Shown here piece after piece: positions 6,685-21,541 of a DNA stretch of 34,763 nucleotides. A model generated the notes under the pieces. That model worked only from the letters and a program-made list of their open reading frames with translations, was not told where the DNA came from and did no database searches. Source of the stretch: Candidatus Polarisedimenticolia bacterium (GTDB lineage: Bacteria > Acidobacteriota > Polarisedimenticolia > Gp22-AA2 > AA152); the NCBI GenBank assembly GCA_035764505.1, contig DASTZC010000115.1, positions 1 through 34,763 on the forward strand, given 5' to 3'. How positions within the stretch are numbered: position 1 is the first letter of the stretch; the number at the start of each line of letters is the position of its first letter. The translations under genes and the position numbers were made by a program.

Positions 6685-8835
6685 TTGAATCCGCTGCGTC
6701 GCTCCCTCGACCCGCGATTCTCCGTCTCCGCCGCCGTCTTCCTCCTCGCAGCGCTCGTTTACGGCATCACCCTGCGCAACGGCTTTGTCTTCGACGATCG
6801 TGCCGCGGTGCAGGACAACCCCGCCGTGCAGTCGCTCGATGGGATCCCCCGGCTGCTGCTTTCTCCCTACTGGTCGGGTGAGGGGCTCTCCAACCGGCTG
6901 TACCGTCCCGCCACGATGATCTCCTTCGTGTTGAACCGGGCCCTGCTGGGCAGCGCACCGGCAGGGTTCCATCTGATCAACCTCATGCTTCACGGGCTGA
7001 TTGCCGCCCTGCTGTTCCGCCTGCTCGACACCCAGTTCGGAAGCGTCCCTCTCGCCCTGACGGGCGCGGCCCTTTTCGCGGTCCATCCGCTTCTCTCCGA
7101 GGCCGTCTCCGGCGTGGTCGGCCGGGCCGAGCTGCTGTCGGCTTTCTGCCTGCTCGGCGCGCTGCACCTGGATCGGGACCGGGCCGCCGGGTCCCGGGCG
7201 GTCGTCCCCCTCGTGGGAATGCTGTTCCTTCTCGCCCTCCTGTCGAAGGAGAACGCGCTGGCCTTCCCGTTGATCCTCCTTCTCACGGACGGCGTCCTGG
7301 GAAGGCCTCCCGGCATCTCCGCCCGCAGGCGATGGATGGAAATCGCGCTCCTGGGTGGCGTGGCGGCCGTCTACCTGGCGCTGCGGTGGGCGGCGCTCGG
7401 AAGCCTCATGGAGACCGGCGCGATCCCGGAGATCGACAATCCGGCGGCCCATCTGCCGGCGCTGCAGCGGATCGCCACGGCGTTCGCGATGGTGCCGCGC
7501 TATCTGGGTCTGTTCCTGTTCCCCGCGAAGCTCTCCGCCGATTACTCGGCCGTGCAGATTGTTCCCGCCTCCGGGCCCTCCGACCCCGCGGCGCTCGGGG
7601 GGCTGGCCCTGGTCCTCGGGTTGGTGATTCTCGCGGTGCGCGGGCGACGCCGCTTCCCGGCTCTGACCTGGGGGATCGGATTCGCGGGATGTGCCTTCGC
7701 GCTGGTCTCGAATCTCGCCTTCCCGATCGGGACCCTGTTCGCCGAGCGGCTGATGTACCTGCCGGCGATCGGGCTGTGCGCCGCGTGCGGCGCCCTGGCG
7801 GCGCTCCTGCACGCCAAGCGGCCGCGTACGACGCGCGCCACCGTCGGCGTGATCCTGGTGCTGCTGGCGGGGAGGACCTGGGCCAGGAACCGGGAATGGA
7901 AGGATGATTTCACCCTGTTCCGCGCGGCAGAGCGGGTCTCGCCGAGAAGCTCCAAGGTGCAGTACAACCTGGGCAACGCCTACCGCCGGCGTGGGGAGAT
8001 CGGCCTGGCCATCGGCCATTACCGCAGATGTCTCGAGCTGTTTCCGCGCTACGTCCCGGCACGGCGCAACCTGGCAGTGGCGCTCACGGACACCGGCTCT
8101 TCAAATGAGGCGGTCGAGATCTTGCGCAGGCTGGTGGCGGAAGAGCCGAAACGAGCCTCCCTCTACAACAACCTGGGCAATGCTTATCTGGCCTTGGGCC
8201 GGCTTCCGGAGGCCGAGACGGCGTACCGCACGGCGGTTTCGCTGGATCCCGCCTCGGCCGATGCCCACAACAATCTGGCGGTGATCCATCAAGGGCGTGG
8301 CGATCTGCCGGCGGCCGAAGAGGAGCTGCTCGAGGCGGTGCGTCTTTCGCCGGATTCGGCGCGCTTCCGGATCGCCCTTGGCGATCTCTTCCTGAAGGAG
8401 CAGCGGCCGCAGGAGGCACGGGGGGCATTCGCGGAAGCCGTCGAGCGGGCACCGGATTCGGCCGAGGCGGAGCGCGGTCTTGGAGAGTCCCTGCTCCGCC
8501 TGAGCCGGAGCCGCGAGGCGGAAGCGGTGCTGCAGCGCTCCTTGAAGCTGAACCCGCGACAGTGGGAGGCGACGGCGTTGCTCGGATACCTGCATCAGCA
8601 GCAGGGAGAGGATCAGGAGGCGGAGCGTTATTACCTGAGCTCGCTCGCCGTCCGTCCCGGACAACCAGAGCTGCGGCAGAACCTGGGGGTGATCTACATG
8701 CGCCGCCCGGATGGCAAATCGAAGGCGATCGAGCAGTTCCGCCGATGTCTGGAGCTGAACCCGCCCGAGCCGATCGCCTCGGCGGTACGCCGGATGCTCT
8801 CGGATCTGGAGGGCAGTCGGGAAAATCAGCGCTGA
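6685..8835 (+). CDS. TMTC-like GT-C glycosyltransferase with C-terminal TPR repeats
   Basis: The protein has 716 residues. The N-terminal half is a multi-pass membrane region with features of eukaryotic TMTC O-mannosyltransferases: NGFVFDDRAAVQDNP in the first periplasmic loop, where DD is the expected catalytic/metal pair of GT-C enzymes, then RLYRPATM, FAVHPLLSEAVSGVVGRAELL and FAERLMYLPAIGL. From about residue 420 to the end there are some eight TPR units (YNLGNAYRRRGEIGLAIGHYRRCLELFP, YNNLGNAYLALGRLPEAETAYRTA). The family transfers sugars from lipid-linked donors to proteins; acceptor and sugar are unknown here. The start is TTG 6685 with a poor ribosome binding site, but the membrane region begins within 15 residues, so a much later start is unlikely. 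Confidence 0.82.
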   Translation: MNPLRRSLDPRFSVSAAVFLLAALVYGITLRNGFVFDDRAAVQDNPAVQSLDGIPRLLLSPYWSGEGLSNRLYRPATMISFVLNRALLGSAPAGFHLINLMLHGLIAALLFRLLDTQFGSVPLALTGAALFAVHPLLSEAVSGVVGRAELLSAFCLLGALHLDRDRAAGSRAVVPLVGMLFLLALLSKENALAFPLILLLTDGVLGRPPGISARRRWMEIALLGGVAAVYLALRWAALGSLMETGAIPEIDNPAAHLPALQRIATAFAMVPRYLGLFLFPAKLSADYSAVQIVPASGPSDPAALGGLALVLGLVILAVRGRRRFPALTWGIGFAGCAFALVSNLAFPIGTLFAERLMYLPAIGLCAACGALAALLHAKRPRTTRATVGVILVLLAGRTWARNREWKDDFTLFRAAERVSPRSSKVQYNLGNAYRRRGEIGLAIGHYRRCLELFPRYVPARRNLAVALTDTGSSNEAVEILRRLVAEEPKRASLYNNLGNAYLALGRLPEAETAYRTAVSLDPASADAHNNLAVIHQGRGDLPAAEEELLEAVRLSPDSARFRIALGDLFLKEQRPQEARGAFAEAVERAPDSAEAERGLGESLLRLSRSREAEAVLQRSLKLNPRQWEATALLGYLHQQQGEDQEAERYYLSSLAVRPGQPELRQNLGVIYMRRPDGKSKAIEQFRRCLELNPPEPIASAVRRMLSDLEGSRENQR

Positions 8836-8899: not shown

Positions 8900-9895
8900 T
8901 CAAGGCGTCTTGGAGGCCGAGGGAGAAGGCTTGGCAGCCAGCTCCGCTTCGATCTGCCGCTTCATCCCCTCGAAGGATCGATCGTTCACCTTCTTGCCGT
9001 TGATGTAGAGGCTGGGGGTCCCAGTGACCTGGGCGTCGGCGCCGTGTTTCATGTCCTCGGCGATGATCTTCTCCAGCTCGGGATCCTTCTGGTCCTTCTC
9101 GAATTTCGCCACGTTGAGCCCGATCTCCTTGGCGAACTCGCTGAAGCGGAAGTTTCCCTGCGGGTCTTTCATCGTCGCCTGGTTCTTGAAGATCAGATCG
9201 TGCATCTCCCAGAACTTCCCCTGGCGCTGGGCCGCGAGGGAGGCGAGCGCCGCGGGCTTGGCGTTGGAATGGAACGAGAGCGGATACTGCTTGAAAACCA
9301 GCTTGACCTGCTTCGGGAAGGCCCCGAGCACCTGCTCGAGGGTAGGCAAAAGCCTAGCGCAGTAGGGTCACTGGTAGTCGGAGAACTCGACGATCGTCAC
9401 CGGGGCCGATTTCGGTCCCTTGTAGGGATCGCCTGTGGTGTCGATGCTGAAAACCTGGTTCGGGTCGGCCGCCGGGGGAGCCGGCGGGGGAGTGGCCGCC
9501 TTCGCCAGCGCGGCCTGGAGATTCGCCTTGGCCACCGCGGCGCTCTTCCCGTCCTTGAAATCCTGGATGACGCCTTTCGCCAGCGACAGGCTGCGACTGC
9601 ACCCCGGGTCCTTGACGCGGCACTCCGCCAACGTCATACCGCAATTGCAGTTGCACCGCGTCTCGTTGAGGATTTGGGTGGCGGCGGCGATCTGCTCAGG
9701 CGTCAGGCCTGAAAAATCCAGCCCGCTCATCTGGGCGGGTTGCGTCGGCTGAGTCGGCGCAGCGGGCGCAGCAGGCGTGGGTGCTGTCGCTTGGGCCAGC
9801 AGGCCGCTTCCGCAGGCCGCCGCCAGCGACAAGACGAGAATGGCCGCCGGCGCGCGCCGTCGCGCGAGCGGATGATTCGGGGCGAGTCGAGTCAT
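8900..9895 (-). CDS. DsbA-like thiol oxidoreductase, predicted selenoprotein (Sec176, UPYC active site)
   Basis: Read through the TGA at 9370-9368, this is one 331-residue periplasmic protein. Residues 1-36 are a signal sequence; a lipobox-like AAAC at 25-28 makes a lipoprotein possible. Residues 81-99 form a Cys cluster, CNCNCG then C92 and C99. A Pro/Ala linker follows, then a thioredoxin-fold domain that begins APVTIVEFSDYQ-U176-PYC179, where relatives have CPYC. The fold continues on the far side of the TGA with FKQYPLSFHSNA, the helical insert and the cis-Pro motif VTGTPSLYING. A SECIS-like hairpin lies at 9322-9342. The start is ATG 9895, with AAGGAG 9 nt upstream. The family shuttles disulfides in the periplasm. 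The true stop at 8902-8900 is also TGA. A nonsense mutation or base error remains possible. Confidence 0.85.
9322..9342 (-). promoter_or_regulatory. Putative bacterial SECIS hairpin
   Basis: In the mRNA, counted from the base after UGA, nt 26-28 (CCC) pair with 44-46 (GGG), U29 is bulged, nt 30-34 (CGAGC) pair with 39-43 (GCUCG), and the loop 35-38 is AGGU. The loop begins 34 nt after the UGA, inside the roughly 16-37 nt spacing reported for bacterial SECIS elements. A 5'-side bulged U and a GGU-containing loop are also hallmarks of the E. coli fdhF element. A second small hairpin, UAGGC-UUUU-GCCUA at 9343-9356, lies immediately before it and lacks the loop G. Confidence 0.65.
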
Positions 9896-9956
9896 GGAGA
9901 ATCGCTCCTTGGCAAAGGTCGAGCCGAGACCGTGGAGATGAAAAGCAAACCCAGCG

Positions 9957-9984
9957 ATTATAGGCCGGAGAGGCCGTATGTCAA
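9957..9984 (-). promoter_or_regulatory. Consensus sigma-70 promoter of the selenoprotein gene
   Basis: On the minus strand, TTGACA (9984-9979) and TATAAT (9962-9957) are separated by 16 nt. Both hexamers match the consensus perfectly, and the leader to the ATG at 9895 is about 55 nt. This argues that the gene is actively expressed and not decaying. Confidence 0.75.
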
Positions 9985-10077
9985 TGGGCCGCTGCCGTGC
10001 CGCGGCCTATCTGGGAGCCTTCCAGACGCCGTGCTATACTCACCGGACATCCAGGAATCGAACCGGGAGAACCCATC

Positions 10078-10647
10078 GTGCAGCACTCGAAGCGACGCCT
10101 TTCGCGTCTTGCGCCCCTTCTGATCGCCCTCGTGGGGGCCGCCTCGCCGGGGCTGTCGATGCCCGAGCCGCAGGAAGCACCGGACGTGCCGCCGCTCGTG
10201 AGCTCGCCCTGGCGGAGCTGGCATTACAACGCGACCCCCGAGCAGGTGCGTTCCGCTTTCGAGTCGCTGTTCAAAGAAGACGGCCTCAGCGTCAAGGAGC
10301 AGGACCGCAAAGCGGGTACCTTCACCACCGATATGGCCGAGTTCAACGACAAGAAATTCGGCGTGGAGCTCTCGATCCCGCCCCCCAAGGCGGGTCCGAA
10401 ATACCCCTACTTCCAGACCAACGACATGCGCTCCGGACGCTTCGGAATCGAAGCCAAGATCTACCCCGCCGCAGGGGCCGAGGTCCGCGTCGACATCCGG
10501 GCCCTCCTGGAGATCCGCGGCATGGACCAGAAAGCGAAGACGATGCGCTGGATTCCGCGCTACTCCAACGGGGCGGTCGAGCAGCAGTACTTCACCCGTC
10601 TGTCGTTGCGCCTGCTGGAGTCCGCCGGCCAATCGGCGCAGCGCTGA
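10078..10647 (+). CDS. BamC-like exported protein
   Basis: The protein has 189 residues and starts at GTG 10078, with GGGAG about 8 nt upstream. A signal peptide covers about residues 1-28. The mature part contains SWHYNATPEQVRSAFESLFKEDGLSVKEQDRKAGTFTTD, which resembles the helix-grip repeat of BamC/NlpB, the accessory lipoprotein of the outer-membrane protein assembly complex. No clear lipobox is visible (GLSMPEPQ), so anchoring is uncertain. A TATACT at 10035-10040 may be its -10 element, but no good -35 is seen. It diverges from the selenoprotein gene and is followed after 4 nt by the DUF1015 gene. Confidence 0.5.
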   Translation: MQHSKRRLSRLAPLLIALVGAASPGLSMPEPQEAPDVPPLVSSPWRSWHYNATPEQVRSAFESLFKEDGLSVKEQDRKAGTFTTDMAEFNDKKFGVELSIPPPKAGPKYPYFQTNDMRSGRFGIEAKIYPAAGAEVRVDIRALLEIRGMDQKAKTMRWIPRYSNGAVEQQYFTRLSLRLLESAGQSAQR

Positions 10648-10651
10648 TCTT

Positions 10652-11920
10652 ATGGCACGGGTCGTCCCGTTCCCGGCGCTGCGCTTCGCATCGCGGCTCG
10701 CCGCCGAGATGGATCGCCTCGCGGCGCCCCCCTACGACGTCATCTCCGAGACCGACCGCGCCTCCTACGAGGCACTCCATCCCAAGAACATCGTCCGGCT
10801 GATTCTTCCCGGGGAGGCGGGCCGGACGGAGGACGGGTCCTTTTATTCCGGCGCCGCGGCCTTACTGCGCCAGTGGAGGACGGAGGGGACCCTGGTGCAG
10901 GATCCCGCTCCCGCTTTCTATCCCTATCGACAGACCTTTCGAGGTCCCGACGGATCGGTGGCTTCACGCACCGGATTTCTCGGTGCGCTCGAGCTGCCGG
11001 CGCCGGAGGCTCGCGGTGCGTCGGTCCTGCCCCATGAGAAGACCCTCGAGGCGCCGCGGCGCGACCGGACCCGGCTGATCGCCGCCTGCCGTGCCAATCT
11101 GAGCCCGATCTTCCTGCTGCATCCCGACTCCCGCGGCGAAGCGGGAGCCTGTCTCGAAGAAGCGACGACGCCGGGTCCTTTGATTTCTTTCACCGACCGG
11201 GGAGAGGTGCGGCACGAGCTCTGGGTGGTGCCTGAGGGTCCGCTCACCGGGCGCCTTTCCCGCGCGCTGGATTCCGAGTGGACCCTCATCGCGGACGGAC
11301 ATCACCGCTACGAATCGGCCGTGGCGGTGCGCGACAGCCTCCCGGATGAGAAGGGGGCCGGCTTCGTGCTGGCCTTCTTCTGCAGCCTGAAGGATCGCGG
11401 CTTCCGCATCTTCCCCATCCACCGGCTGCTGAAGGCGGCGCCGGCCGGGATCGGCGCCGAGCCGTTGCAGCAGATCCTGGGCCGCCGCCACCCGGTCGAG
11501 ATCCCGCCCGATTCCGCCGGACCCCGGGAGCTTCGCGAGGCGCTCGGGGCGGCGGGGGAGAGAAGCTTCGGCGTCGTGCCGCGCGGCGGCGCTCCGTTCC
11601 TCTTGAAGGTGAAACCGCAGGCGGAAGCGGAGGACGGGTCCGCGGGCGATCTGGACACCGTGGTGCTGGAGCGCCAGGTCCTGTCGGCCGCTCTCGGAGT
11701 AAGCCCCGCCGACATCGCCGCCGGAGCGCTTGGCTTCACCCCCGACGCCGCGGAAGCCTTCCGCCAGGTCCGCTCGGGCGAAGCCTGGGCAGCCTTCCTG
11801 CTCAATCCGCTGCGCACCGAAGCTGTGGTGCGCGCCGCGCAGTCGGGCATTCGCCTGCCGCAGAAGAGCACCTACTTCTATCCCAAGGTTTTCACCGGCC
11901 TGGTCATCCGTCCGTTTTGA
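10652..11920 (+). CDS. DUF1015 family protein
   Basis: The protein has 422 residues, the usual family length, and begins MARVVPFPALRF with the typical N-terminal signature DRLAAPPYDVISE and HPKNIVRLILP. The other hallmark, LIADGHHRYESAVAVRD, is present near residue 213. It has no signal peptide and is probably cytoplasmic. The family is widespread in bacteria and archaea; I assign no reaction. It starts 4 nt after the stop of the BamC-like gene, so the two are likely co-transcribed even though their predicted locations differ. Confidence 0.88.
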   Translation: MARVVPFPALRFASRLAAEMDRLAAPPYDVISETDRASYEALHPKNIVRLILPGEAGRTEDGSFYSGAAALLRQWRTEGTLVQDPAPAFYPYRQTFRGPDGSVASRTGFLGALELPAPEARGASVLPHEKTLEAPRRDRTRLIAACRANLSPIFLLHPDSRGEAGACLEEATTPGPLISFTDRGEVRHELWVVPEGPLTGRLSRALDSEWTLIADGHHRYESAVAVRDSLPDEKGAGFVLAFFCSLKDRGFRIFPIHRLLKAAPAGIGAEPLQQILGRRHPVEIPPDSAGPRELREALGAAGERSFGVVPRGGAPFLLKVKPQAEAEDGSAGDLDTVVLERQVLSAALGVSPADIAAGALGFTPDAAEAFRQVRSGEAWAAFLLNPLRTEAVVRAAQSGIRLPQKSTYFYPKVFTGLVIRPF

Positions 11921-12080: not shown

Positions 12081-13244
12081 CTAGGGGCGACGGGGGGTGA
12101 GAGGGGAGAGGGCGCGAAGGCGGGTGGCTACTTCCACCAGCGCGGCCGCCGCCTGATCCGCCATCGAGTCGGCTTCGCCGGCTCCAAAGCAAAAATCGAG
12201 CGCGCCGCGCGCCAGCACCGGCTCGATGCCGATCGCCTCGAGGACGTGGGAGGCTTTTCCGGCGCCGCGGGTACAGGCCGATCCGCTGCCGGCGGCAATG
12301 CCGGCATCATCGAGCAGACCGAGCGCGGCTTCCCCCTCCACGTAGCGCAGGCAGAGGCTCAGGTGTCCCGGGAGCCGCTCTTTTCGATCCCCGGTGGCGA
12401 CATAGTCCTCGAGTTCCTGCTCGAGACGCGAGCGCATCCTGGCCTCGAGATCGCGGCGGCGCCTCACCTTCTCGGCTGATTCCGCGCGGGCCCACCGCGC
12501 CGCCTCGCCGAAGCCGACGGCGAGCGCGACGCTCGGAGTGCCGGAGCGCAGCCCTCCTTCCTGGGTTCCCCCTTCCAGCTGCGGCTTGAGGCGCACTCCC
12601 TCGCGCACCACGAGCGCGCCGATTCCCTTGGGTCCGTGGAACAGATGCGCTGCGAGCGACAGGAGATCCGGCTGGATCTCGGACCAGAGACCGGGGAACA
12701 ATCCGGCGGTCAGCGTCGCATCGGTGTGCAGCAAGGCGCCGGCGGAGCGGGACAGGCGGCGGATCTCCACAAGCGGCTGCATCGTTCCTATCTCGCCGTT
12801 GGCGTGCATCACCGACACCAGTGCGGGCGGTGAGCCCAGCAGGCCTTCGAGGTGATCGAGATCGACCCTGCCCCGCGGATCGACCCGGAGCAATTCCACC
12901 CGGGCCCCTTCTTCGATCAAGCTCTGCGCCGCGTGCAGCACCGAGAGATGCTCGATCGCCGACACGACCAGGCGCGCGGAGCGCCGCCCCTTGGCCCGGA
13001 AAACACCGCGCAGGGCGAGATGGTTGGCCTCGGTCGCGGAGCTGGTGAAGACCACCTCTTCCGGCAGACAGCCCACCAGTTGAGACACTTCCTCCCGCGC
13101 CTTCTCCAGCGCCGCGCGCGCCACTCTGCCGCGGGAATGAGGCGATCGAGGGTCGCCGAACTCCTCACCGAGAAAGGGGAGCATCGCCGGCAGGATGCGC
13201 GGATCGGGAAGAGTGGTCGTGGCATTGTCCAGGTAGATCGACAC
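12081..13244 (-). CDS. Cysteine desulfurase-like protein lacking the PLP lysine (probable pseudoenzyme)
   Basis: The protein has 387 residues and starts at GTG 13244, with GAGGAG about 7 nt upstream; the frame remains open further upstream but is not family-like. The class V aminotransferase fold is clear: YLDNATTT at the N-terminus, FTSSATEANHLA, EH before SVL, RSGT, and the mobile loop SGSACTRG with its Cys. Compared with E. coli IscS, however, N155 is Gly (HANGEIG), Q183 is Leu (DATL), S203 is Ala and the PLP-binding K206 is Leu (AAHLFHGPKG, codon CTG). The substrate-binding Arg of the IRFSLG motif is Asp (LDFCFG). H104 and H205 are kept. Desulfurase activity by the usual mechanism looks impossible. 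A structural, sulfur-carrying or regulatory role is conceivable. Confidence 0.85.
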   Translation of the reverse strand: MSIYLDNATTTLPDPRILPAMLPFLGEEFGDPRSPHSRGRVARAALEKAREEVSQLVGCLPEEVVFTSSATEANHLALRGVFRAKGRRSARLVVSAIEHLSVLHAAQSLIEEGARVELLRVDPRGRVDLDHLEGLLGSPPALVSVMHANGEIGTMQPLVEIRRLSRSAGALLHTDATLTAGLFPGLWSEIQPDLLSLAAHLFHGPKGIGALVVREGVRLKPQLEGGTQEGGLRSGTPSVALAVGFGEAARWARAESAEKVRRRRDLEARMRSRLEQELEDYVATGDRKERLPGHLSLCLRYVEGEAALGLLDDAGIAAGSGSACTRGAGKASHVLEAIGIEPVLARGALDFCFGAGEADSMADQAAAALVEVATRLRALSPLTPRRP

Positions 13245-13314
13245 GCGGTCTCCTCGCGAGGGCCGGATCCCGCGGGGCTCGCGGGAAAAACGAGGTTCAA
13301 GGATAACACCGGCA

Positions 13315-13343
13315 TTGACGCCAAGGAGCGGGATCGGTATATG
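13315..13343 (+). promoter_or_regulatory. Putative promoter of the beta-propeller gene
   Basis: TTGACG at 13315-13320 and TATATG at 13338-13343 are separated by 17 nt. The predicted transcript would begin close to 13350, leaving a leader of about 25 nt before the ATG at 13375. Confidence 0.55.
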
Positions 13344-13374
13344 AAGGGAAACGATCCGCCGAGAGGGGCGTTGG

Positions 13375-15891
13375 ATGCGGATTCCGGCTTTTCGAGGCTG
13401 CTTTAGAGGTGCGGCGGCCCTCGCCATCGGCATTGCGGCAGCCGGTCCGGCAGCCGCGGCTACCGACCTTCCCCTCGGACAGGTTCCGACGCTCGTCGTC
13501 TTCACGCCCATCTCCGTGGAAACCGATCCTGCCGACGGTACCTCCTGGATCGCCGATCAATACCTGTCCCGCCTGGTCCAGGCGCTGCCCGACGGGTCGC
13601 CGATCAAATCGTTGCCGGCCGCCGCATTCGGCGGCGGCCGGATCGCCGGCGTCACCCTCGAGCCGGGGGCATCCGGCTGCCTGTGGGTGAGCGATCCCGA
13701 CGCGCAGCGGCTCGTGCGCCTCACCCGCGGGGGCCTGCCCGCCGGAGAGTTGTCGGTCGGAGCGCTGGGGATCACCAATCCCGCCGATCTGGCTTACGAC
13801 GCGCGCGACGGGACGCTGTTCGTCGCCGATTCCACCGCCCGATCGGTGTTCAACATCCAGCCCGTGGACAGCGATGCCAACGGGCTTCCTGATCAGGCGC
13901 AGCTTCTGGATCTCTTCAGCACGATCCCGCTCGGCTCCGACAACCCGATGGGCCTTGCGCTCGACCCTGCGGCCGGCCATCTCTATCTCTCAGATCCGGC
14001 GCTGGACCGGGTCTTCGATCTGGATCTCTCCGGTGCGCTGCAGGGCTCCTTCGATACCGGCAGCGTGGGCGGCACGTCGATCACCGGGCTGTCCTGGGAC
14101 GCGGCGGCGGGGACCCTGGTGGCCGCCGATGCCGCCCGCAAGATCCTGCGCCTCTCTCCGGGCGGGTCGCTGCTGGGGCTGCGGAACAGCGCGCCTTTCG
14201 GAACCCTCTCGCCGCAGGGCATCGCCTGGGACCCCGCGACCTCGACGCTGCTCGCGGTCTCCGGAGAGCGCAAGCTCATCCGCTTCCGCCCGGAGCCGGC
14301 GGGGGCACCCGCCTCCATCGGCGGCATCGACCTGATGCGTCAGGAATGGACGACTCCTTTCACTTCGATTGCCCCGGCCGGCATCGCGGTGGTGTCCGGG
14401 AGCTCGGATCGCTACGTGCTGGACAGCATCCAGGACCGCGTCTTTCGCGTGAGCCCGCAGGGGAATTCGCTGGGCTTCTTCGACACGGGCCCCGCCGGGG
14501 CCGCCTCCCCCACGGGGATCGCCGCCGGTCCGACGGGCGATTTCTATCTGACCGACAATGTCGCGCGCCGCGTCGTCCGGGTCACGGCCGCAGGAGCGGG
14601 ACTCGGCAGCTTCTCGACCTCGCCGTTCAAGCACAAGCCCCAGGGAGAGCCGCCGTGCAACGACCCGCGCGGGATCACCTACGACCCCGCGTCGGATCAT
14701 CTCTTCGTCGCCGATTTCCAGGAGGCGAGGGTCTTCGAGATCACCCTCACCGGCTCCTTCGTGGCCGCTTTCAGCACTCTGCCGGCGGCGCCCTATCCGA
14801 CGGACCTGGCCCTGGATCCCGCTGCCGGCCGCCTCACCGTGAGCGACAGCAGCGGCACTTACGCCGAGTTCACCCGCAGCGGAGCCTTCCTGCGCAAGTA
14901 CGCGGGGGTGCCCGCCACCGTCGACCTCTCCGGATCCACGGGCGTGTCGGTTGATCCCGACTCGCAGGTCCGCGTCCTGAGTGATCCTTCGCGGCAGGTG
15001 GTTTACTTCGTGTCGCCTTCGGGATCCACCCTGGGGCAGATCTCGCTTCAACCCTATGGGCTGGCCAGCCCGACGGGGGCGGCCTGGCTGGCTTCTGAAT
15101 CGCGCCTGTTCGCGGTGGACGGGGCGAGCCTTCGTCTCTACTCGATCACCCCCGGCCCGGATCAGGTGTTCGGAAACGCCGATGACGTGTCGGCCTGGAC
15201 TTCCGTGGCCGCCTACGGCAGCTCCGACCCGGAAGGGGTGGTGCTGAACCGGGCGGCGGGCAAGGTCGGATGGGCCGATCAGAGCCTGGGAAGACTGTTC
15301 TGGCTGACGACTTCCTTGCTCTACTCGGGATTTGTCGACCTGGCCCCTGCGGGAGCATCCACGCCGCGGGGAGCCGACCAGGACCCGACGAGCGGCTTCC
15401 TGTTCGCCAGCGATCCGGTCTCCGGCCTGGTGATCGCCGATGCCAGCGGCGCCGCAACGCAGGCCATGGCCTGGGAGCCCCTTGGAATTGCCGATCCGTG
15501 GGGAATCGGGCTGAGCCCCGCGGAAGAATCGGCGCTGGTGATCGATCGCTCGGGGCCGGCGCTGAAGAGCGTCGATCTGGGGTCTTTCTTCGCTCCGGAG
15601 GTGCAGGCGCTCCAGGTGTTGGAGCCCGCCGAAATCAGCTGGCAGACCCGACCCGTCTTCCAGGGCTACCAGCTGTTCCGAGGCTCGCTGCTGCTGCTGC
15701 CGACCGGCTCGTTGGGGGGCTGCTTCTGGACCGGCTCCTATCCTCCCGCCTCCGACCCCGAAACACCTTCCCAGGGGGATGGCTGGTTCTACCTGGTGGC
15801 CGGGAAGAATGCGGGAGGGGTGGGAGATCTGGGCCGGAAAGGAGATGGAACTCCCCGATCCCTCGATGCGGTCTCGCCTCTTTGTCCATGA
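13375..15891 (+). CDS. Secreted NHL/beta-propeller repeat protein
   Basis: The protein has 838 residues with a signal peptide at about 1-28 (GAAALAIGIAAAGPAAAA). From there to about residue 740 it consists of repeated four-stranded blade-like units containing variants of GLALDPAAGHLYLSDPALDRVFDLD, IAWDPATSTLLAVSGERKLIRF and ITYDPASDHLFVADFQEARVFEI, typical of NHL-type or SMP-30-like propellers. The last ~85 residues look like a fibronectin III-type cap ending GWFYLVAGKNAGGVGDLGRKGDGTPR, a C-terminal style common in secreted proteins of this sort of organism. The ATG at 13375 has GAGAGGGG about 7 nt upstream. It is probably extracellular or periplasmic; the ligand is unknown. Confidence 0.8.
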   Translation: MRIPAFRGCFRGAAALAIGIAAAGPAAAATDLPLGQVPTLVVFTPISVETDPADGTSWIADQYLSRLVQALPDGSPIKSLPAAAFGGGRIAGVTLEPGASGCLWVSDPDAQRLVRLTRGGLPAGELSVGALGITNPADLAYDARDGTLFVADSTARSVFNIQPVDSDANGLPDQAQLLDLFSTIPLGSDNPMGLALDPAAGHLYLSDPALDRVFDLDLSGALQGSFDTGSVGGTSITGLSWDAAAGTLVAADAARKILRLSPGGSLLGLRNSAPFGTLSPQGIAWDPATSTLLAVSGERKLIRFRPEPAGAPASIGGIDLMRQEWTTPFTSIAPAGIAVVSGSSDRYVLDSIQDRVFRVSPQGNSLGFFDTGPAGAASPTGIAAGPTGDFYLTDNVARRVVRVTAAGAGLGSFSTSPFKHKPQGEPPCNDPRGITYDPASDHLFVADFQEARVFEITLTGSFVAAFSTLPAAPYPTDLALDPAAGRLTVSDSSGTYAEFTRSGAFLRKYAGVPATVDLSGSTGVSVDPDSQVRVLSDPSRQVVYFVSPSGSTLGQISLQPYGLASPTGAAWLASESRLFAVDGASLRLYSITPGPDQVFGNADDVSAWTSVAAYGSSDPEGVVLNRAAGKVGWADQSLGRLFWLTTSLLYSGFVDLAPAGASTPRGADQDPTSGFLFASDPVSGLVIADASGAATQAMAWEPLGIADPWGIGLSPAEESALVIDRSGPALKSVDLGSFFAPEVQALQVLEPAEISWQTRPVFQGYQLFRGSLLLLPTGSLGGCFWTGSYPPASDPETPSQGDGWFYLVAGKNAGGVGDLGRKGDGTPRSLDAVSPLCP

Positions 15892-19642: not shown

Positions 19643-21541
19643 TCAGGTCTTGTCGATCTGCTCGATCATCGCGGTGTTGATCTCGGTGCGGTGCCGGGCG
19701 CGCAGCTGCGCGAGGTAGGCACGGAAGAGCTGGTCGCGGCGCGCCCCGAGCAGGCTGTTGCGCAGGGTCTCCTTCTGCGTGTCGAAGCCCTGCATCGGAT
19801 CGGGTCGATCCGTCAGCCGCGCGAAGGCGACGGAGCCGTTGGGAAGGGAAAGGGGCGCGGGGGCCGCCCCCGGCGCCAGCGCGAACAACGTGTCGAGAGT
19901 GGAGGCATCGCCGCCCAACTCTCCCGCGGGGCCGCTTCTCGGGACCGCGCCGGTGTTCTTGATTTGCACCTTGAGCTTTTTGGCGAGCGCCGCGAGATCG
20001 CCCCCGCCGCCCGCCAGCTTGCGCGCCGACTCCACCCGCGCACTGCGCTGGATGTCCTCACGGACCCTGTCCCGCACGCTGGCGAGCGGCAGGGGAGCGG
20101 GCGGAGCGGCCTCGAGGTACTGCACCACCGCGATTCCGAGCGAGGTGCGCGTCGGGGCGCTCGACTCCCCGGGCTTGAGGGCGAAGAGCGCGGCCGAGAG
20201 CGCCGGCTGCGGGCCCAGCTCCGGAAAGGGCTCTCCCGCGTGCAGCGCCTTGAAGTCGCGGGGCTCGGCGCCGGCGGAGCTCGCCGCCTTGCCGAAATCG
20301 CCCGACGAAAGCGCGGCCGAAAAGCCTTCGGCGCGGCGCTGTGCCTCGGCGGCCACGCGGCCCTGCTTGAGGGCCTCGAGAATCTGAGGGCGCGCCTCCT
20401 CGAGGGTCAGCTCATGCGCAGGCTGTTGGTCGGTGAGCTTGATCACGTGAAAGCCGAAGGGAGTGCGCACCGGCTCCGACAGATCTCCCACCTTCATCGA
20501 CCAGGCTGCCTCGGCGAACTCGCGCACCATCTGATCGCGCGTGAAATAGCCGACGTCTCCCCCGGTGGCGGCGGTGGAATCCTCGGAGACCTCTTTCGCC
20601 ACCTTGACGAAATCCTCGCCCTGCCGCAGCCGGGAGAGCGCCTTGCGGATGCGCGCTTCCGCCGACTTCACGGCGTCGGCCGGGGCGTCGCTGGCCACCT
20701 TCACCAGGACGTGGCTGGCGCGACGCTTCTCGGGAACGGTGTAGAGCGACTTCTGGTCCTGCAGATACTGGGAGCGCACCTCGGATTCAGGGACGTCGAT
20801 CCCCTTGGCAATCTCCTTGAAGGAGAACAGCGCGACCTTCCCGGAGCGTCCCTCGCCCCCGGAGTAATCGGCCAGGTGCGCCTTGTAATAAACCTCGATC
20901 TCGGCGTCCGAGGGAGCCGCGGCGGAGAGGCGCGAGGCGTCCAGGATCAGGTATTCGAAGGTCGCCTTCTCATTCTGCCGCCGGAACACTTCCTTCAGCT
21001 CCGCCTCGGTGACCGCTGCCGAATCCTCGACCAGAGAGCGCAGCTTGTTCACCAGCAGCTGCCGCCGTACCGAAGACTCGAAATTCTCGAACATCACCGG
21101 GTTGGAGCGATACAGCTTCTCGTAGCGCTCGCGCCCCACGAAAGCGCCGTTCTGCTGGAAGGAAGGATCCTTCATGACGGCCTCGGCCACTTCCTGCCCC
21201 GTCACGCTCAGTCCGGCACGGCCCGCCTCTTTTTCCAGCAGGTCTCCGTCGATGAGCCGGTTGACGGCCGTAAGCCCTATCCTCAGGTAGGCGCGCTGGG
21301 AGTCGTACTGCGCCCCCAGCAGCTGGCGGTAGGTCGAATCGAGATTCCTCGCCTCGTCCTGGAATCTCTGGACGGAGATCACCTCGCCGTCCACCCGGGC
21401 GGCCCAGTCGGTGCGGTTGGCATCCTTCGTCCCGCTGACCAGGGCGCCGATGCCGTAGACGAACCCCAGAACGAAGGAGGCGATCACGATCCAGAGCACC
21501 CACTTGAGGTGCTTGAACTTCTCCCGAAAGACATTGAGCAT
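19643..21541 (-). CDS. ppiD: PpiD-type periplasmic peptidyl-prolyl isomerase/chaperone
   Basis: The protein has 632 residues. It has one N-terminal membrane anchor at about 12-33 (LKWVLWIVIASFVLGFVYGIGALV), a SurA/PpiD-type helical chaperone domain to about 240, and a parvulin rotamase domain at about 275-375. The rotamase carries RRASHVLVKV, GGDVGYFTRDQMVREFAEAAW and TPFGFHVIKL. A second, degenerate parvulin-like region (FPELGPQPALSAALFALKPGESSAPTRTSLGIAVVQYLE) follows, as in E. coli PpiD. It is inner-membrane anchored with its bulk in the periplasm, where it assists proteins leaving the Sec translocon. The ATG at 21541 has GGGGAG about 6 nt upstream. Confidence 0.88.
   Translation of the reverse strand: MLNVFREKFKHLKWVLWIVIASFVLGFVYGIGALVSGTKDANRTDWAARVDGEVISVQRFQDEARNLDSTYRQLLGAQYDSQRAYLRIGLTAVNRLIDGDLLEKEAGRAGLSVTGQEVAEAVMKDPSFQQNGAFVGRERYEKLYRSNPVMFENFESSVRRQLLVNKLRSLVEDSAAVTEAELKEVFRRQNEKATFEYLILDASRLSAAAPSDAEIEVYYKAHLADYSGGEGRSGKVALFSFKEIAKGIDVPESEVRSQYLQDQKSLYTVPEKRRASHVLVKVASDAPADAVKSAEARIRKALSRLRQGEDFVKVAKEVSEDSTAATGGDVGYFTRDQMVREFAEAAWSMKVGDLSEPVRTPFGFHVIKLTDQQPAHELTLEEARPQILEALKQGRVAAEAQRRAEGFSAALSSGDFGKAASSAGAEPRDFKALHAGEPFPELGPQPALSAALFALKPGESSAPTRTSLGIAVVQYLEAAPPAPLPLASVRDRVREDIQRSARVESARKLAGGGGDLAALAKKLKVQIKNTGAVPRSGPAGELGGDASTLDTLFALAPGAAPAPLSLPNGSVAFARLTDRPDPMQGFDTQKETLRNSLLGARRDQLFRAYLAQLRARHRTEINTAMIEQIDKT

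Follow-up and report, generated by a model that had tools for sequence, protein, structure and literature searches.

A predicted selenocysteine-containing DsbA-like oxidoreductase joined to a CcmH-like five-cysteine domain in Acidobacteriota

Results

A single gene interrupted by one TGA

The window (the whole stretch of DNA analysed, 34,763 nucleotides) contains on its minus strand a frame that opens with the ATG at 9895, meets a lone in-frame TGA at 9370-9368 and thereafter stays open until the TGA at 8902-8900 (Table 1). The first-pass annotation had taken what look like two genes to be one, and so they are: both lie in the same frame, split by that codon and nothing else. Around the TGA the read-through product is VEFSDYQ-U-PYCARLLPTLEQVL...VTGTPSLYINGKK, and the whole chain comprises a probable signal peptide, a five-Cys domain, a Pro/Ala linker and a DsbA-like domain. 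The downstream part is intact, as had been noted, the cis-Pro motif included. The upstream promoter, also correctly described as consensus, agrees with the sigma-70 hexamers at all 12 positions, and a promoter pair of the TTGACT/TATAA type occupies the equivalent place in the three nearest genomes; that it is kept there despite differing spacers leads us to expect that the gene is transcribed alone. Judged from the sequence, export of the mature protein to the periplasm via the putative signal peptide is probable.

Table 1. Features of the selenoprotein locus and other genes of the window
Feature	Position	Strand	Basis or remark
Membrane protein with TPR repeats, convergent	6685..8835	+	adjacent, order-wide, to the orthologue, whether Sec or Cys
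Whole CDS, 331 codons, predicted Sec at 176	8900..9895	-	final stop TGA 8902-8900
DsbA-like thioredoxin-fold domain	8945..9436	-	Pfam Thioredoxin_4 6e-26 over the read-through protein
cis-Pro motif VTGTPSLY	9005..9028	-	translation, alignment
Second hairpin, presumed SelB site, type B bacterial SECIS: CCUCGAGC-AGGU-GCUCGGGG	9322..9341	-	fold, covariation
Apical loop AGGU, 34 nt between loop and Sec codon	9330..9333	-	AGGU/AGUU/GGGU in 17/17 type B sequences
First hairpin UAGGC-UUUU-GCCUA, covarying	9343..9356	-	fold, covariation
Active-site motif U-P-Y-C	9359..9370	-	translation, alignment
Predicted Sec codon TGA (U176)	9368..9370	-	frame reading, orthologue alignment
CcmH-like five-Cys domain, residues 56-132	9500..9730	-	structure, profile comparison
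Cys cluster CNCNCGMTLAECRVKDPGC: C81, C83, C85, C92, C99	9599..9655	-	all five invariant in 20-row alignment A8
Probable signal peptide, residues 1-36, ...LLAQA	9788..9895	-	sequence reading
Shine-Dalgarno-like AAGGAG, 9 nt 5' of ATG	9905..9910	-	sequence reading
Sigma-70-type promoter TTGACA-N16-TATAAT	9957..9984	-	consensus match 12/12
Unnamed divergent gene	9997..10647	+	kept at the locus in G001, G002, G003
DUF1015 protein	10652..11920	+	kept at the locus in G001, G002, G003
Aminotransferase class V / cysteine desulfurase-like protein	12081-13511	-	Pfam 2e-58
SurA/PpiD-like periplasmic peptidyl-prolyl isomerase	19643-21541	-	SurA_N, Rotamase domains

Elsewhere in the window, the cysteine desulfurase-like gene lies 2.2 kb from the selenoprotein gene, and a link with selenium delivery is possible. 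The peptidyl-prolyl isomerase gene lies further along on the same strand.

A DsbA-like domain with TGA or Cys at one codon

All the hallmarks of a DsbA-like protein – UxxC, a cis-Pro loop and a thioredoxin fold with a helical insert – are present in the C-terminal domain. Besides Thioredoxin_4, Pfam returns DSBA at 2e-20; with C scored at the Sec position, the bit scores stand at 92 for PF13462 (cut-off 23.2) and 73.7 for PF01323 (cut-off 25.6). The predicted fold (pLDDT 91.7) finds its best PDB matches in 3gyk, BdbD, DsbA and ScsC.

The codon at position 176 is TGA in the congeneric genomes G001 and G002, TGC in the sister genus (G003) and TGT or TGC in the order-level orthologues (G004-G011). 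The proteins of the three TGA-bearing genomes are only about 70% identical, and the identical TGA in two genomes besides the window's makes sequencing error unlikely. The collected homologous loci amount to 264 distinct sites: 46 with TGA, 215 with Cys and three with neither. Wherever the DsbA domain of a relative carries a TGA at its active-site motif it is on this same codon, and the comparison revealed no TGA elsewhere in the DsbA domain of the collected loci; the alignments also hold a few other stops, most of them expected at chain ends. The proposal that the TGA takes the place of the leading Cys in a DsbA-like CPYC is thus borne out, and the comparison of homologues suggested with it yields Cys or TGA exactly at 176, with no random stops elsewhere.

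The TPR protein, the unnamed gene and the DUF1015 gene flank the Sec genes of the window's genome (G000), G001 and G002 and likewise the Cys counterpart in G003; the TPR gene in addition adjoins the order-level Cys orthologues, where gene order is partly conserved. These shared neighbours mark the Sec and Cys genes as true orthologues. In pairs with the window gene dN/dS is 0.18-0.24 3' of the TGA as against 0.14-0.21 5' of it, rough values given that synonymous sites are near saturation; purifying selection that persists beyond the TGA argues that the downstream part is still translated. The viral contigs searched contained no relative.

Selenocysteine machinery

The 4.46 Mb assembly encodes tRNA-Sec (73.8 bits; SeC(tca) according to ARAGORN), selA (543 bits), selB (336 bits) and selD (366 bits), so that the search for the Sec machinery proposed at the outset found every component. 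The selD gene carries an in-frame Sec TGA of its own at the usual active-site place (GGUAAK). These matches are not generic, since control genomes exceed the cut-off in some cases only.

Two SECIS layouts

Two hairpins follow the UGA. The first was weighed as a SelB site but rejected, its loop being without G and its energy only about -6.8 kcal/mol; nor is it intact in all members (it is broken in L159 and L168, for instance). The second begins 26 nt after the TGA and in isolation folds at -13.4 kcal/mol, a stability equalled by none of 200 shuffles. Over the whole 61 nt the stability is unremarkable (z -0.58), and fold energies of the 61-nt stretch alone fail to tell Sec genes apart from those with Cys (z mostly -0.5 to -2.7); the support for a SECIS element accordingly comes from covariation and not from energy.

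Among the TGA sites there are two layouts: type A in 29 and type B in 17, the window included. In type A (AGGGUCG-GUC-CGACCCU) the GGUCC loop follows the UGA at a distance of 18 nt, and the encoded peptide is forced to be RVGPT; in type B (CUCGAGC-AGGU-GCUCGAG) the distance from UGA to loop is 34 nt, and a smaller hairpin comes first. The type A hairpin, expected in the window gene from its paralogue, is absent there. At least six of seven pairs of one or other hairpin type are present at 46/46 TGA sites and at 17/215 Cys sites, a contrast partly built in because the hairpins were defined on Sec sequences. The bacterial SECIS model calls for G in the first two loop positions, a spacing of 16-37 nt and an MFE of -7.5 kcal/mol or lower (PMC13188914); both layouts satisfy it, the window hairpin by virtue of its AGGU loop, its 34 nt and the energy given above. 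Only one selB in the window's genome reaches the cut-off, and one SelB therefore probably serves both layouts.

In the 17 type B sequences 94% of cells are paired and five pairs are changed on both sides, a degree of pairing reached in 0 of 500 shuffles (slid registers give 33-45%). RNAalifold, unprompted, returns exactly the same structure, and the covariation persists once the window's genus is removed. The SECIS-like hairpin described earlier therefore stands as regards its AGGU loop, its distance from the TGA and its covariation; the supposedly bulged U is in fact paired (U-A in 14/17, U-G in 3/17). A covariance model (R1) built from 14 type B sequences outside the window's genus scores the window at 65.2 bits, G001 at 70 and G002 at 67, compared with 22-31 bits for the order-level Cys orthologues and a maximum of 24 bits in the rest of the window's genome (a Cys paralogue at C157), part of any such similarity being owed to protein conservation, since the hairpins fall within the reading frame. 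In the sister genus, the Cys gene (L025:1891-1956, G003) scores 53.8 bits and keeps most pairs. This is most simply read as a recent change from Sec to Cys that has left a decaying, fossil SECIS; a gain of Sec from Cys in the window's genus could also have given rise to it.

Type A Sec genes almost invariably encode RVGPT behind UPFC, whereas Cys relatives vary there (alignments A2/A7). The type A codons after the UGA spell the hairpin, and the RNA element hence seems to dictate protein sequence.

Layouts follow clades

A FastTree phylogeny of 114 DsbA domains separates the type B sites from the type A sites completely, each type in a clade of its own, and the split has 100% local support. The tree, in which many forks are weak, needs 16 changes between Sec and Cys, at least eight of them forced by well-supported branches. 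The confinement of each layout to its clade implies that SECIS layout is inherited with the clade, while Sec itself has been gained or lost repeatedly.

The relatives vary in architecture. The window's genome holds a second Sec-DsbA gene of a membrane-anchored type with a type A SECIS (L052 = G000:C26:5001-5585, minus). In L062:1452-2885 (G017:C15) and L106:2002-4200 (a Lake Baikal Myxococcales MAG) a CcmH-like domain precedes two DsbA domains, each with UPFC and a type A SECIS, from which two Sec per chain are predicted. What to the eye resembles a SurA-type N-terminal chaperone region precedes the DsbA domain in L068, L069, L070 and L071 (Sec) and in L061 (G000:C157, Cys), which would make a further Sec-DsbA fusion, to a foldase-like part. 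The Desulfobacterota-type proteins L154, L155, L158, L194 and L195 are type B Sec-DsbA proteins without the CcmH-like domain, and their N-terminal repeats read like a beta-propeller blade (VDIAVSPDGQRAFVLTxxGEVxIY).

The five-cysteine domain

The five Cys residues of the N-terminal cluster had been correctly placed in the first-pass annotation. It judged the combination with this cluster unusual, but the cluster is not confined to this gene: a CcmH-like domain of this kind is common to the Cys orthologues and to ResA-like proteins of the phylum. Pfam and NCBIfam offer no family for it, and PF03918 (CcmH) does not match the window domain, one relative reaching 14.7 bits against a cut-off of 25. 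The predicted model (pLDDT 95.4) was compared with solved structures by VIA-align, whose top two rows are both CcmH – 2hl7 at Z 9.0 (2.2 A over 72/77 residues) and 2kw0 at Z 7.5 – with the next unrelated row at Z 5.7; a Z below about 13 may reflect a common helical-bundle arrangement and counts only together with the hhalign profile match. This match, against 14 CcmH proteins of related genomes, is 94.4% (DsbA control 0.8%). Foldseek with the N-terminal domain alone gave no match at E <= 0.001, and the likeness to CcmH is for this reason drawn from VIA-align, hhalign and sequence. The CxCGC motif is also present in the related genomes' own CcmH proteins. L213 (G000:C281) and its relatives have CDCGC...C.CG in place of the usual CcmH LRCxxC motif (alignment A9).

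The domain is present in 48 of the 396 genomes of the phylum searched. Outside the class it is mostly C-terminal on ResA-like proteins with WATWC(P/G)PC, and the three fusions scanned have ResA scores of 2e-27, 6e-26 and 9e-24. The loci L256 (G000:C287:27712-27912), L253 and L259 further show it alone in small secreted proteins, together with a SEC-C motif, and in three tandem copies (L259). Within the window no ccm genes lie near the selenoprotein gene; a CcmH proper is encoded elsewhere in the genome, at C281.

Discussion

The joined frame, the complete machinery, the exchange of Sec and Cys at one codon, the covarying SECIS and the two domains are there in the sequence, and together they make it highly probable that UGA 9370-9368 is decoded as Sec at a DsbA active site. 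That the TGA might be a real stop, in a pseudogene or split gene, or an error for TGC or TGT, is a thought invited by the two open frames that the window formally displays and by a draft assembly of 288 contigs. Against it, the same codon recurs in two other genomes amid conserved surroundings, purifying selection goes on downstream, the Sec machinery is complete and a SECIS hairpin accompanies 46/46 TGA sites; at the level of sequence we regard this reading as refuted, and its residual probability as negligible. Ordinary suppression, with UGA read as Trp, Cys or Gly, has nothing to recommend it beyond the UGA itself and is very improbable: TGA ends genes here, the window gene among them, a dedicated tRNA-Sec is present together with SelA, SelB and SelD, and the covarying hairpin conforms to the model published for bacterial SECIS elements (PMC13188914).

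The purpose to which the selenoprotein is put is a matter of more delicate judgement. We propose, tentatively and with the expectation that it may well prove mistaken, a Sec-based enzyme of cytochrome c maturation or thiol relay, in which a Sec-DsbA and a five-Cys CcmH-like domain are united in one secreted chain. Apocytochrome c is classically reduced by ResA/CcmG in partnership with CcmH, and fusion of the five-Cys domain to two classes of thioredoxin fold, taken with this partnership, suggests an exchange of electrons. Redox pairing of the two domains we rate at about an even chance. That the client is cytochrome c is doubtful; apocytochrome c handling is simply the most specific guess. A strong contender, if somewhat short of an even chance, is that the protein oxidises or isomerises secreted proteins in general, as a DsbA-type enzyme, and that the CcmH-like domain is a dimerisation or docking module only, much as the N-terminal part of ScsC serves trimer formation. 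The nearest folds are indeed DsbA, BdbD and ScsC, the gene lies outside any ccm operon, the relative L037 has the CcmH-like domain without the Cys of the cluster, and in the Desulfobacterota relatives the N-terminal part is of quite another kind. Yet all five Cys are invariant in A8, and the appearance of the domain on two thioredoxin-fold classes, one of them ResA-like, suggests a redox role. We think it rather unlikely that the domain binds metal, be it Zn, Cu, an Fe-S cluster or the like, and that the Sec-DsbA keeps it or a client reduced. CxCxC-x6-C-x6-C is also plausible as a metal site, the second-best fold match other than CcmH is a designed zinc protein, and relatives of the ScsC type act in copper tolerance; the resemblance to CcmH and the partner folds nevertheless favour thiol exchange, and no metal gene adjoins.

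In the explanation that we favour overall, whatever the client, the gene would be monocistronic and its product an exported selenoprotein. SelB and Sec-tRNA(Sec) would bind the AGGU-loop hairpin 34 nt downstream, and the UGA would be read as Sec. The mature protein would consist of the CcmH-like domain with its five invariant Cys, a Pro-rich linker and the Sec (UPYC) DsbA-like domain, and would most likely act as a periplasmic thiol-disulfide oxidoreductase, with electrons moving between the Sec/Cys pair on one side and the Cys cluster and a client protein on the other. Sec176 would attack a disulfide or accept from a thiol, Cys179 would resolve, and the flexible linker would let the five-Cys domain give or receive electrons, an oxidising and a reducing direction both being compatible with the sequence. 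Like the insertion of Sec in the cell, the periplasmic location, the transfer between domains and the client are what we infer. If the tentative proposal of a Sec-based relay is correct, an exchange otherwise conducted by two proteins, a thioredoxin-fold reductase and CcmH, would take place within one molecule with Sec as nucleophile, and the CcmH-like domain would be a new and recurrent redox module of Acidobacteriota.

Ordinary annotation would call the window gene as two broken genes. Its recognition adds a well-supported candidate to the selenoproteins of a phylum whose selenoproteome has received little attention in the literature searched. The locus also amounts to a natural experiment, one genus having Sec and its sister genus Cys together with a decaying SECIS amid conserved neighbours, and the same genomes hold two sister DsbA clades with two SECIS layouts. 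The CcmH-like fusion provides a concrete hypothesis for what Sec-DsbA proteins do, and the domain, shared by Sec-DsbA and ResA-like proteins, may constitute an undescribed periplasmic redox module.

Comparison with known systems

As the first-pass annotation stated, Sec-containing DsbA-like proteins have been reported elsewhere, and the reports go back to 2005: nine UxxC sequences from the Sargasso Sea (PMC1088965, 2005), four in bacterial genomes (PMC1794560, 2006), DsbA 1/2/3 in the GOS survey of 2008 (PMC2398784) and DsbA-like form 1, with one Sec, in an inventory and review of 2026 (PMC13188914). To call the protein a new selenoprotein was thus too strong, since UxxC DsbA-like proteins are a listed family. 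What looks new is the CcmH-like fusion, the two SECIS layouts that track clades, the tandem double-Sec relatives and the decayed SECIS in a Cys orthologue. The open literature searched (subscription papers and bioRxiv lay outside the search) contained no description of a CcmH-DsbA fusion; nor did it describe tandem double-Sec forms or clade-bound layouts, which is weak evidence. The best NCBIfam match is NF041057, the Rcas_1661 thioredoxin-like (seleno)lipoprotein ('DsbG-like', UxxC), at 1.9e-24 over the DsbA domain; the window protein scores 86.6 bits, below the equivalog cut-off of 190, and so does not belong to that family.

BdbD (3eu3), ScsC (7rgv) and 3gyk of S. pomeroyi resemble the C-terminal domain in their DsbA-like fold; they are, however, Cys enzymes, and their N-terminal parts are unrelated to that of the window protein. 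CcmH (PF03918), of system I cytochrome c maturation, resembles the N-terminal domain in fold (2hl7, 2kw0), but has LRCxxC where the window domain has CxCxC and two more Cys; unlike CcmH, the window domain is without a C-terminal membrane helix and is followed by the linker and DsbA. The ResA/TlpA-like proteins L241, L245, L247 and L252 share the five-Cys domain, fused to a thioredoxin-fold reductase of periplasmic type, but differ in their thioredoxin class (WATWCPPC), in a reversed domain order and in having Cys for Sec. Finally, the known UxxC selenoproteins (PF01323) agree with the window protein in having Sec for the leading Cys of CxxC, in a SECIS just downstream and in being scattered among Cys homologues. 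That family is described by its DsbA domain alone, with one Sec; here a CcmH-like N-terminal domain is added, and among the relatives there are chains with two Sec-DsbA domains.
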